From: Pollutimonas subterranea
GTDB taxonomy: Bacteria; Pseudomonadota; Gammaproteobacteria; Burkholderiales; Burkholderiaceae_B
Reading direction: 5' to 3'
Assembly (NCBI RefSeq): GCF_002849655.1
Contig: NZ_PDNW01000015.1
Location: forward strand, 49,775-113,774
DNA: 64,000 bases
Shown here in pieces: positions 24,433 through 34,779 of the stretch (within the stretch, counting starts at the first letter, position 1; the number at the start of each line of letters is the position of its first letter). A program made the translations under genes and the position numbers. The notes under the pieces were generated by a model. The model saw nothing but the letters and a program-made list of their open reading frames with translations, made no database searches and was not told where the DNA came from.

Positions 24433-24580
24433 AGCAGCCGCTCAGTCATAGACGCACAATAGACAAATAGACAGTGGATAGTAGGTAGTAGGTAGTAGGT
24501 AGTAGGTAGTAGGCGGACAACACCGACAGCCCTTATTTTCACTCTTCATCGGCTTCGTCGTCCAATATCCACATCTTCAA
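24433..24580. other. Non-coding stretch between DMT gene and structured element A
   Basis: No gene is seen here. It holds the upstream region of the DMT exporter, a five-unit heptamer repeat (24479-24513) and the approach to element A. Together with element A and the 64 bases before the apt stop, 438 bases are without a gene. Confidence 0.6.
24479..24513. repeat. Five tandem copies of the heptamer TAGTAGG
   Basis: Five perfect consecutive units of TAGTAGG occupy these 35 bases, about 50 bases upstream of the DMT exporter start. Repeats like this can change length by slippage. No reading frame crosses it. Confidence 0.95.
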
Positions 24581-24806
24581 GGCGCCGGTGGCCGCTGCGG
24601 GCCAGGCGAAATTTGAGCGCGCCCTGCGGTCGGCCTGGATCGGGGATACAAGCCCGCGCTGTCCGAGCGGGACGCTTACGGACAGCCAGTGGCTGTCCGT
24701 TCCGCGAGTTCGCGGGCGCCCCGATCCGGGCTGACCGCAGGGTCTGCCCCGGCGAAGCACGGGGCCGCAGCGATATTGAGCAGGGTCCGCAGCGGCCACC
24801 GGCGCC
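24581..24806 (-). repeat. Structured non-coding element, copy A (nested stems)
   Basis: 226 bases with long-range pairing. Outer stem: 24581-24600 with 24787-24806, 20 of 20 pairs. Inner stem: 24622-24645 with 24719-24742, 24 pairs including two G-U. Core: a closing pair GCCCGCG/CGCGGGC, the block CTGTCCGAGC (24659-24668), a perfect inverted repeat 24678-24700 centred on CCA-G-TGG, and GCGAGTTC plus GCGGGCGCC (24704-24720). A small hairpin GCCCC/GGGGC lies at 24746-24765 between the inner and outer right arms. It begins 64 bases after the apt stop codon when read on the minus strand. The same architecture recurs at 33551-33774. I could not name a known RNA family. Confidence 0.7.
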
Positions 24807-24870
24807 GCTTAAGAAAGAAGATGGCAGCTCCAACATGCGAGTCGCCACAGCATCCCAAATCAGTAGCGGG

Positions 24871-25428
24871 TCAATCCCCGTCGAACGAGCAAACCGTATA
24901 AATATCCAGCCCCGTTTCCTTCAGCGCCTTCGACCCGCCCAAATAAGGCAAATCGATAATCGCCGCCGCCTCCACCACATTCGCCCCAAGACGCTGCAGC
25001 AGCTTCGACGCCGCCACCATCGTCCCGCCCGTCGCGATCAAATCATCAATCAGCAACACCCGCTGGCCCGGACGCACCGAATCCGTATGCATCTCCACCG
25101 TTGCATTCCCATACTCCAGCGAATACTCCTCCGCCACCGTATCGAACGGCAACTTCCCCTTCTTGCGCACCGGCACGAAACCCAGGTTCAGCTCATACGC
25201 CAGCACGGCACCCAGAATAAAGCCCCGCGCATCCACACCCGCGACCAGGTCCAGACGCTGCCGCATATACCGGTACACGAACAAATCGATAAGCACCCGG
25301 AACGAACGCGGGTCTTGAAGCACAGGCGTGATATCGCGAAAGGTAATGCCGGGCTTGGGCCAATTGGGAACGCTACGAATCGCGTTGCGAACGTAGTCGG
25401 CAGGATCAATATGCATGTGTTTCGCCAA
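24871..25428 (-). CDS. apt: Adenine phosphoribosyltransferase
   Basis: Purine salvage: adenine plus PRPP gives AMP. The PRPP-binding motif [13 protein letters not shown] lies near residue 124, preceded by the dimer-interface block [17 protein letters not shown] and the front block [14 protein letters not shown], all diagnostic. Length of 185 residues is usual. An ATG 15 bases inside (25413) is an alternative start. It is divergent from kdsD and followed on its own strand by structured element A. Confidence 0.96.
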
Positions 25429-25646
25429 AACTGAAAATAGCTGAAAAGAAGACAGCCCCTATTTTCGCATGTGCACTGCCATGCTCGGGCCAGCCATAAC
25501 TATACGCGGCTATACGCGGGCCATCGCACCGGCGGCTTTCACAATCCACGCTTTTACAAATAAACCACACAAGCAATGATGAAATCGGCCGCACCTTCGC
25601 CATCATTGCCCGTCCACAGCCATGGATGTACGTTTAAAATCATCGC
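25429..25646. other. Divergent apt/kdsD intergenic region
   Basis: 218 bases between divergent genes. A short direct repeat TATACGCGG occurs twice around 25500-25520. No clear promoter hexamers or terminator were identified by eye. Confidence 0.4.
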
Positions 25647-32399: not shown

Positions 32400-33475
32400 C
32401 ATCACGACGCCTTCCCATCCCGCTTCTTGCCTTATGCATCATCCTCGCCATCCTGGCCGGCTGCTCCACGCCGAAGAAGACCGGCACCAAAGGCAGCACC
32501 ACGCGCGGCGGCGGCTATTACATGGATGACGGGCCTGGCTCGAACATACCGCCCGGCATCGAAAACATCCCCGATGCAGTTCCACAGATTGAAGTACACG
32601 CCCCGGCAAACTTCCGGCCTTATGTCGTGTTCGGCAAGAAATATGTTCCGGTCAGCGACGAAAAACCCTTCCGCGAAGAAGGCACGGCGTCCTGGTACGG
32701 ACGCAAATTCCACGGCAAGAAAACCGCCAATGGCGAAGTCTACGACATGTACGCAATGTCGGCCGCCCACCCCACGTTGCCCATACCCAGCTATGCCCGC
32801 GTGACCCACGCCAATACTGGAAAATCCGTGGTCGTACGCGTCAATGACCGCGGACCGTTCCACAGCAAGCGCATCATCGACGTTTCCTATGTCGCGGCCA
32901 GCAAGCTGGGCCTGATAGGCCCCGGCAGCGGCCAGGTCATCGTCGAAGCCATCACCAACGACGACATACGGAATACGCGAGTGGCCAGTACGCCTGCCGC
33001 GCCACGAACGGTCCGAGTCAGCGAGTCGCGGCCGGCCGAGACGCGACCGGCACCAGTGAAAATTGCACAAATGACGCAGCCGCTGCCCGACGCGCTCGAG
33101 GTACTGCGGCTCAGCGAGGCCCGACCTACCGAAGCCAACCCGGACGCCCTGCATGCTCTGAAGACCGACGACCAGATCGGCCATATCACCCCGGCCGGCA
33201 CAGGCACCCAGGCCGAGGTGGTGCAGGACCAGCCCAGTCCCGGACAAATCTATCTTCAATTCGGCGCGTTCAGCGCCTCGCACACCGCCAACGGCCTGGC
33301 CCAAAAAATTAATCAGCAAATCAGCCAGGTTGAAAGCCGCCCGGCCAAGATCCGAACTGTCAACGAACTGCACAAAGTTCAGATAGGCCCTTATTCCTCA
33401 CGCACCGAAGCCGTGAATGCGGCCTTTCGCATCCGGGAAGTCACAGGCATACAAGCCACGCTTGCCTTGAGCTAA
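32396..33475 (+). CDS. rlpA: RlpA-like septal lytic transglycosylase lipoprotein with SPOR domain
   Basis: A lipoprotein (lipobox LAGC, Cys22) with a double-psi beta-barrel domain (about 93-190: GTASWYGRKFHGKKTANGE, then VVRVNDRGPFHSKRIIDVSYVAA, with the catalytic Asp in NDRGP) and a C-terminal SPOR domain (about 283-358). RlpA cuts peptidoglycan lacking stem peptides at the division septum, and SPOR takes it there. A Pro/Ala/Thr-rich linker joins the domains. Coupled to rapZ by ATGA. Confidence 0.93.
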   Translation: MTSRRLPIPLLALCIILAILAGCSTPKKTGTKGSTTRGGGYYMDDGPGSNIPPGIENIPDAVPQIEVHAPANFRPYVVFGKKYVPVSDEKPFREEGTASWYGRKFHGKKTANGEVYDMYAMSAAHPTLPIPSYARVTHANTGKSVVVRVNDRGPFHSKRIIDVSYVAASKLGLIGPGSGQVIVEAITNDDIRNTRVASTPAAPRTVRVSESRPAETRPAPVKIAQMTQPLPDALEVLRLSEARPTEANPDALHALKTDDQIGHITPAGTGTQAEVVQDQPSPGQIYLQFGAFSASHTANGLAQKINQQISQVESRPAKIRTVNELHKVQIGPYSSRTEAVNAAFRIREVTGIQATLALS

Positions 33476-33550
33476 CGGATTTTCGGTGCAAGTGCTTACG
33501 GCTTGAGGCGCACGGTGGCTAGTAGGCTGGCCCAAGCTTCGCTCATGCAA

Positions 33551-33774
33551 AAAGGCGGGTGTGTCGGGGGCTGTGCAGGCGCCTCGCGCACGCCGTTTCG
33601 GTCAGTCCCATCGAGGAGGCGAGGCCGCGGCTGTCTGAGCCCGACGGGTGTCGGGCCACTGGCCCGACCGGGCGAGTTCCGCGGGCGCCTCGATGGCACT
33701 GACCGAAACGGGCACCCTGGCAACGCCAGGGCGTGACGCGTGAAGCCGAAACAGCCCCCGACTCACCCGCCTTT
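33551..33774 (-). repeat. Structured non-coding element, copy B (nested stems)
   Basis: 224 bases with the same plan as 24581-24806. Outer stem: 33551-33574 with 33751-33774, 23 of 24 pairs. Inner stem: 33594-33616 with 33688-33710, 22 of 23. Core: palindromic CCGCGG closing pair, block CTGTCTGAGC (33631-33640), inverted repeat 33650-33668 centred on CCA-C-TGG, then GCGAGTTC and GCGGGCGCC (33672-33689). A small hairpin CCCTGGC/GCCAGGG at 33715-33731. The stems differ in sequence from copy A but keep pairing. It begins 72 bases after the rsmI stop on the minus strand, and on that strand ends in a T-run (complement of 33549-33553). The remaining bases of 33476-33846 show no gene. Confidence 0.7.
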
Positions 33775-33846
33775 CTAAAGAACAGATAGCCGCCCCAACG
33801 CCTCGGCAATGCAGCCATCCTTATAGCCACCTCGACCAAAAACCCG

Positions 33847-34779
33847 CTAATCCGTCTTCTGACGCCCCAGCGCCAAGGCATACAACACATCGCGCGGCAT
33901 TCCCGTGACCTTGGCCGCCACCTTGCTTGCATCGCGCAGCGACATGGTCTCCAGCAAGGCGTCCAGCAACACCAGGGTGGACGGATCGATATCTTCCGTC
34001 GCCTTGGCGTCATCCGCTTCGTGCACGATCAGTACGAACTCTCCCTGGCTGCGATGAGCGTCCTCGGCCAGCCAGGCCGCCGCGTCGGCCAACGGCATGG
34101 TGACCACCTGCTCGAAGCGCTTGGTCAATTCACGCGCGATCGTCAATTTGCGCATGGGCCCGCAGACCTGCAGCATGTCCTTTACCGCGGCGCCCAACCG
34201 GTGCGGCGACTCGAACATCACGATAGGTGCCGGCACGGCACACCAGCGCTGCAGCCACTTCTGGCGTGCGCCGGCCTTGGGCGGCATGAAACCGGCAAAG
34301 ACATAGGCGGGATTTTCGTCGGACGTAACGCCGCTGGCCATCAACGCCGCAATGACGGCGCTGGCGCCTGGAATGGCAATCACGCCATAACCGGCATCGC
34401 GCGCGGCGCGCACGATGCGGGCGCCCGGGTCGCTTACCGCGGGCGCTCCCGCATCGGACACCAGCGCCACCCGTTCACCGTTGGACAAGCGATCGACAAT
34501 GGCCTGCGCCGCTTCGGCCTCGTTATGCCGATGCGCCGCAATCAGCGGCGTACTGACGCCCCAGGCATCCATCAGCGGCCGGCTTGCGCGTGTGTCCTCC
34601 GCCGCGATCACGTCGCAGCGGGCCAGCGTCTGCCAGGCACGCAAGCTCATGTCGCCCAGGTTTCCTATGGGTGTCGCCACGACGTAGAGCGTGGCCGTGG
34701 GCCAGTGCTGCGCGTCCACGCGCTCGGTGAGACGTTTCCATGTCGCTGGAGTGTCCAAGAAATCGGGCGTTTCATTCAT
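33847..34779 (-). CDS. rsmI: 16S rRNA (cytidine(1402)-2'-O)-methyltransferase
   Basis: Methylates C1402 of 16S rRNA at the decoding site. The tetrapyrrole-methylase-like SAM fold shows VVATPIGNLGDMSLRA, CDVIAAEDTR, LVSDAGAPAVSDPG and IPGASAVIAALMASG. I set the start at the ATG 34779 (MNETPDFLD); the frame continues upstream across yraN on the other strand but carries no homology. Divergent from yraN with 33 bases between, as in E. coli. Element B lies downstream. Confidence 0.95.
   Translation of the reverse strand: MNETPDFLDTPATWKRLTERVDAQHWPTATLYVVATPIGNLGDMSLRAWQTLARCDVIAAEDTRASRPLMDAWGVSTPLIAAHRHNEAEAAQAIVDRLSNGERVALVSDAGAPAVSDPGARIVRAARDAGYGVIAIPGASAVIAALMASGVTSDENPAYVFAGFMPPKAGARQKWLQRWCAVPAPIVMFESPHRLGAAVKDMLQVCGPMRKLTIARELTKRFEQVVTMPLADAAAWLAEDAHRSQGEFVLIVHEADDAKATEDIDPSTLVLLDALLETMSLRDASKVAAKVTGMPRDVLYALALGRQKTD

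Follow-up and report, generated by a model that had tools for sequence, protein, structure and literature searches.

REP and REPIN sequences are inverted palindromes that are dispersed between genes and go together with a RAYT transposase, and integron attC sites, whose recognition depends on folded shape more than on sequence, lie in direct rows beside an integrase. The elements described here differ from REP/REPIN in being far larger, in having two unlike members and in occurring in hosts of which 34 of 40 returned no Y1 transposase; they differ from attC sites in that neighbouring elements diverge. Bacterial MITEs measure ~100-200 bp, have TA ends and give stable stem-loop transcripts, according to the excerpted text of PMC2229807. 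Correia/NEMIS, RUP and ERIC, as presented in that excerpt, resemble the present family in being non-coding, multi-copy and intergenic, with inverted ends, a terminal TA and transcripts predicted as stem-loops. Each of them is a single palindrome of ~100-200 bp (PMC2229807), whereas the present units measure ~380-730 bp and contain either one element or two divergent ones, which share a conserved branched fold and are spread across a class. A transposase matching these units was not found. Pneumococcal repeats are enriched downstream of genes, and BOX, RUP and SPRITE are likewise structured small repeats in that position, for which terminator or 3′-stabiliser roles have been proposed; the excerpted text of that study contains no divergent pair of branched folds and does not use the word 'compensatory' (PMC3049150). 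Stem-loop repeat families are mentioned for the bordetellae in an excerpt of PMC2267715. A literature search lying mostly outside subscription papers found no description of the present repeat, so that it is possibly in print.

The window, a 64,000-nt stretch of the Pollutimonas subterranea genome, contains two copies of the element, A and B, both solo. Copy A comprises the following features.

24581..24806, plus strand: copy A, the whole folded element, a solo copy (shuffle test, covariance-model search and fold)
24581-24603/24784-24806, plus strand: outer stem P1, 23 pairs, one of them G-U
24622-24645/24719-24742, plus strand: inner stem P2, 24 pairs, two of them G-U
24652-24658/24711-24717, plus strand: third stem P3, followed by the conserved loop CTGTCCGAGC / GCGAGTTC
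24678-24687/24691-24700 (24678..24700), plus strand: apical dyad with the centre CCA-G-TGG
24746-24751/24760-24765 (24746..24765), plus strand: side hairpin at the three-way junction
24562..24566, plus strand: CCAAT motif lying upstream of P1; the family is enriched in C[CA]AT at such a distance
24808..24815, plus strand: tail CTTAAGAA after P1; related tails, often in tandem, lie behind other copies

A first-pass annotation, made from the letters of the sequence, had described a perfect outer stem of 20 bases, which proved to be longer and to include a G-U pair. Its inner stem was placed correctly, and the central dyad on CCA-N-TGG and the side hairpin that it reported were both located. The fold of copy A has a z-score of -11.4, and none of 200 shuffles folded as low; the reverse strand (z -9.6 against shuffles) folds less well than the forward strand. 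Of the neighbouring genes, apt is directed against the element and a permease is directed away from it. Neither an empty site nor an inverted end was found for copy A. Upstream, a GTAGTAG heptamer forms a short tandem array (window ~24480-24513) that is mostly missing in a sister species (genome G003).

Copy B was found to be part of a larger unit.

33551..33774, plus strand: copy B, the whole folded element, right member of a pair whose left member is missing
33551-33561/33764-33774 plus 33563-33574/33751-33762, plus strand: outer stem
33593-33616/33688-33711, plus strand: inner stem P2, 24 positions with one mismatch
33473..33849, no strand assigned: B unit, a 377-bp insertion from the TA in the rlpA stop codon to the TA in the rsmI stop codon
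33473..33502, plus strand: left inverted end of the B unit, degenerate
33820..33849, minus strand: right inverted end of the B unit, degenerate

The same plan had been claimed for both copies. This stands for the fold and for the length of the inner stem, and the unpaired blocks CTGTCYGAGC, GCGAGTTC and GCGGGCGCC are indeed present in A and B; what had been taken as the whole of copy B is an element sitting within the insertion. The reported distance of 64-72 bases from the stops of minus-strand genes is about right (ORF ends at 24871 and 33847). Copy B has a z-score of -12.5, again with 0 of 200 shuffles as low, and its reverse strand (z -11.0 against shuffles) folds about equally well. The open reading frames that cross the copies, 24546-24848 (minus) and 24613-25434 (plus) at A and 33543-34013 (minus) at B, look like by-products of the repeat and not like genes.

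The B unit ends in the stop codons of rlpA (33473-33475) and rsmI (33847-33849). TA is present at both termini, and the inverted ends match at 12 of the first 15 bases and at 18 of 30 overall. At the rlpA-rsmI junction the element occurs in the window's own genome and in the sister species, where a relic of the left member is retained; it is missing from G002, G006 and G012, and also from G001 and G004, in which the gap between the genes is short. The duplication of TA rests on this comparison with other species. Judged by these comparisons, copy B is an insertion; it lies between the two stop codons, and its degenerate inverted ends are at TA. The junction is polymorphic for it, as is characteristic of MITEs. 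Inverted ends, a further MITE property, are present in the B unit, and many sister copies have no detectable ends. The first-pass annotation had named, as a refuting case, a known mobile element whose termini explain the stems. This applies in part: copy B does lie in a unit that resembles a mobile element, but its inverted ends are outside the stems and leave them unexplained.

The covariance-model search proposed by the first-pass annotation recovered further homologues with covariation, both in the window's own genome and beyond it. Model R1 was built from 24 sequences, and a refined model, R2, was used to scan the class. BLAST and R1 identified 13 copies in the window's genome, including A and B; they form an A-like subfamily of six (L001-L006) and a B-like one of seven (L008-L014). 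Within the bacterial family, R1 detected copies in 40 of 81 genomes (E 1e-4); matches were also obtained in 19 of 200 genomes of the order (1e-5) and in 28 of 274 genomes of the class (R2), the own genome being counted each time. The highest copy number in the 81-genome scan is at least 34, and fuller scans gave 29 copies in G004, 24 in G006, 32 in G022 and 53 in G005. The family is dispensable, since it is missing from 41 of the 81 genomes, and it is patchy even within one genus (g2), where two of three genomes carry copies. A search with a DNA pattern returned 52 stretches in named genomes: 43 in Alcaligenaceae bacterium CGII-64, four in a Ramlibacter metagenome assembly, two in Pollutimonas nitritireducens and one each in CAII-52, bin26 and a Pusillimonas assembly.

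The suggested comparison with Rfam gave no match over the curated cut-off, either in the window or in 15 related loci, and a known RNA family was rejected on this basis; permissive searches produced sub-threshold matches only, one across three loci and five across five loci. Similarity searches found no match for copy A in plasmids, for copy B in phages, for L225 in plasmids or for L227 in phages, and L233 matched a single plasmid record over 7% of the query. In genome G108 (L228:3125-5217), five weak model matches, all oriented alike, lie within a row of near-identical repeats. These sequences do not contain the GCGAGTT motif, and the same-strand matches may be false.

The elements share a common plan. 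From the outside inward, it consists of P1, an asymmetric loop, a three-way junction with the side hairpin, and P2; then follow a loop of approximately ANGCAAGG opposite CGCC, P3, a loop of CTGTYTGAGC opposite GCGAGTT, P4 and the apical hairpin. Where GAGC is changed to GAAC, the opposite GCGAG is changed to GTGAG (L002, L004), and from this reading of the alignment the GAGC/GCGAG loop may hold a tandem G.A. Of 88 elements, 73 have a P2 of 23-24 bp; in elements from other bacterial families, its lengths gather around 11 and around 24. Degenerate repeats containing a TAAGAAC-like motif are found behind P1 in many copies. The outer stem is followed by degenerate tandem repeats of ~14-40 bases, which vary in number from copy to copy (L098, L104, L141 and CGII-64 loci such as L163).

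Covariation was assessed in an alignment of 94 distinct elements. Pairing is retained in 96.3% of cells, and 35 of 36 pairs have changed on both sides. The covariation score is 0.844, compared with at most 0.130 when the partners are slid, and none of 500 shuffles reached it. As this alignment had been fitted to the model, P2 was recounted by local alignment with equal penalties for G-U and A-C. Across 88 elements the recount gave 1888 Watson-Crick pairs, 120 G-U, one A-C and 83 others. The same stem in 45 distinct elements from other bacterial families gave 649 Watson-Crick pairs, 31 G-U, two A-C and 18 others. For P1, identical scoring yielded 104 G-U against 54 A-C, and a looser alignment running past the stem 109 against 112; the P1 counts are weaker evidence because the alignments overrun the stem. 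By the large excess of G-U over A-C, it is one single strand that is under selection and not a DNA cruciform, since a cruciform or arm-to-arm copying would treat both alike. Moreover, the outward strand is more stable than its reverse in 82 of 94 elements.

At five sites, the window's genome and the sister species share a copy. Base pairs were counted there with the own-genome fold alone and a random-placement control; a joint structure prediction for the two sequences was not used, as it favours a count of zero broken pairs. The five sites hold 12 compensatory changes, 15 one-sided changes and 7 broken pairs, compared with 1.2, 20.5 and 37.0 under random placement. Thus the fold is conserved at the five shared sites. 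Copy A is identical at 225 of 226 positions, while the surrounding apt stretch matches at 439 of 480, the left intergenic region at 78 of 110 and the right at 40 of 74; just upstream of the element, 43 of 50 bases are kept. The other four copies differ at 14 to 30 positions. The identity of copy A is exceptional and was not used as proof for the family.

Covariation on one strand, the hallmark of a structured RNA, is thus found in the 94-element alignment, in the P2 recount, at the shared sites and outside the bacterial family. The first-pass annotation had proposed, from compensatory changes between A and B, a functional folded RNA or single-stranded DNA. The 94-element covariation, the asymmetry between G-U and A-C and the five shared sites bear this out, and such sequence comparisons support a conserved strand that acts in one of these two forms.

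The orientation of neighbouring elements is strongly biased. Among 85 matches in three genomes, 22 of the 23 neighbouring pairs within 2.5 kb run minus-then-plus, one runs plus-plus and none is convergent. Integron attC sites were ruled out by this geometry. In loci of other bacterial families, 11 of 14 and 6 of 11 neighbours are divergent. In G006, read by eye, two members from unlike subfamilies recur together. The left member in CGII-64 is a reduced element. In G036, all 20 of 20 loci hold a single element within ~600 bases, which indicates that solo copies, too, are able to spread or persist. The solo copies of this genome (L129-L148) lie among short REP-like repeats (GTAGCGGCACCC...), and no Y1 transposase was found in G036.

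Gene context was tallied for 33 copies drawn from the 52 named loci, 28 of them in CGII-64, with mechanical ORF calls. Twenty-two copies lie between convergent genes, eight have both genes directed against the element, two have both along it and one lies between divergent genes; in 30 of the 33, the 3′ end of the downstream gene faces the element. In 73 regions upstream of P1, C[CA]AT peaks in one 10-base bin with 28 occurrences, each of the other 18 bins having 0-11. Neither copy A nor copy B has a sigma-70 promoter match. No intrinsic terminator (GC-rich hairpin, short loop, T run) was detected at A or B with a consensus that does not extend to a stem closed over 200 bases.

Units resembling that of copy B were found in other genomes. 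Sister units of 414 bp (L012), 404 bp (L284) and 725 bp (L279) have ends that match at 24, 22 and 16 of 30 bases, respectively. The unit end sequence is TAGAGCATTTTCGGTTCAAGTG. In genome G387, a paired unit of ~540 bp with sharp, longer inverted ends was read by eye in seven of nine loci. The end pattern occurs at 21 places in three of the five genomes searched (reversed control, one), and 15 of these 21 loci contain a model match (E <0.001). In 34 sister windows, the strict pattern was present four times on the left and never on the right, so that many copies have lost their ends or never had them.

The Y1 transposase family (PF01797) was detected in 13 of 81 genomes and in 6 of the 40 that bear copies; it was not found in the remaining 34, the window's own genome among them, and REP/RAYT was rejected as the mover. 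An open frame adjoining the B-like copy L014 (L106:4463-4783) presumably resembles the end of an IS5-type transposase. Four wide divergent pairs (L098, L099, L100 and L101) flank unlike genes, namely those for a 364-aa protein without a Pfam match, ParE, a nitroreductase and a DUF2971 protein. A cargo transposon was discarded, as the four interiors carry unlike genes, which may or may not have moved with the pair. Outside the bacterial family (L225, L227, L231, L233 and L235), a second hairpin of the TTACTTTTCTT...AAGAAAAGTAA type and GC-rich inverted ends border the divergent pairs by eye, making the whole unit there a chain of hairpins.

Taken together, these results identify, with high confidence, a family of inserted, structured repeats. 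The fuller model that we favour, tentatively and at somewhat less than an even chance, is of multi-copy non-coding repeats of ~140-230 nt whose neighbours diverge and whose outward folded strand is likely transcribed, forming a predicted cis RNA module near message 3′ ends. The unit is likely a TA-inserting miniature transposon, with outward strands that are likely RNAs acting in cis near gene ends. The divergent pair would be the original form of the unit, with A, B and other solo copies as its remnants. A putative transposase, acting in trans through the inverted ends, would have delivered the unit to TA sites, and those insertions that fell at gene ends would have survived, with a stop codon provided by the unit ends. 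Given the outward orientation of the elements, a message running into the unit from either flank would carry the far element in its folding orientation near the 3′ end, and would end in that fold or be shielded by it. Selection would then maintain each copy. Up to 53 copies per genome, with selection on each, would fit an action in cis better than a redundant role in trans. It is also possible, though unlikely, that these units represent a class of transposon whose cargo is a pair of divergent fixed RNAs, providing both flanking messages with a rigid, exonuclease-resistant and transcript-insulating 3′ module for which the host keeps the copies in place.

Several observations sit uneasily with an action in cis. 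Neither neighbour of copy A reads it in the folding direction, which speaks against this reading unless the element has a promoter of its own, and the preference for gene ends may be mere tolerance of insertions there. No promoter or terminator match was found at either copy, the family is dispensable, the outer-stem counts are less one-sided, and the strict pattern seldom found inverted ends like those of B; all of these also count against the model. A plug or a terminator would hardly require conserved loops and a fixed stem; these suggest a bound protein or a tertiary fold. Owing to these features and the orientation of copy A, confidence in the cis module is modest, and trans-acting and selfish explanations were retained. 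The elements might be mobile RNA genes, with each outward strand transcribed from its own promoter into a folded RNA that acts in trans and is probably protein-bound. The conserved unpaired loops and near-fixed stem length look like a protein-bound or tertiary fold, the C[CA]AT peak lies just upstream of P1, and copy A is kept almost entirely in the sister species together with most of the bases preceding it. We nevertheless consider this unlikely, as neither a sigma-70 match at A or B nor a partner protein was found, and redundancy would weaken selection on individual copies, yet the fold is kept at five sites.

A purely selfish fold, which serves only the movement of the element, either in the form of single-stranded DNA or as an RNA that helps the transposase, and brings the host no gain, would account for the patchiness within genera, the large copy numbers of some genomes, the insertion of B, the units with inverted ends and the paired ends. 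A dead selfish copy has no need of the double changes that preserve pairing at shared sites, although the copies are possibly active in both species; furthermore, the two folding strands of a pair lie on opposite DNA strands, which is not so in IS200/IS605 ends. We regard this explanation as unlikely too, slightly more so than the mobile RNA genes. The repeats are dispersed, palindromic and intergenic like REP/REPIN moved by RAYT or integron attC sites, and G036 has short REP-like repeats beside its copies and G108 a weak same-strand row. With the Y1 family so rare among copy-bearing genomes and not found in the window's own, neighbours that diverge instead of forming direct rows, and G108 sequences that are without GCGAGTT, membership of either known group is very improbable. 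Least credible is a fold under no selection, produced by arm-to-arm copying of inverted repeats or existing as a cruciform of double-stranded DNA: the inverted repeats are long and nested and the reverse strands fold well too, but neither process explains G-U so far above A-C, and the outward strand is mostly the more stable one.

If the cis RNA module is the correct model, the stray frames of ORF lists hide a family of structured RNA, with dozens of copies per genome at most, that selection keeps copy by copy in Gammaproteobacteria of scattered families, within the genome set as drawn. Work on RNA structure would then have about a hundred natural variants of a single fold to use, and mobile DNA would supply ready-made RNA 3′ ends.
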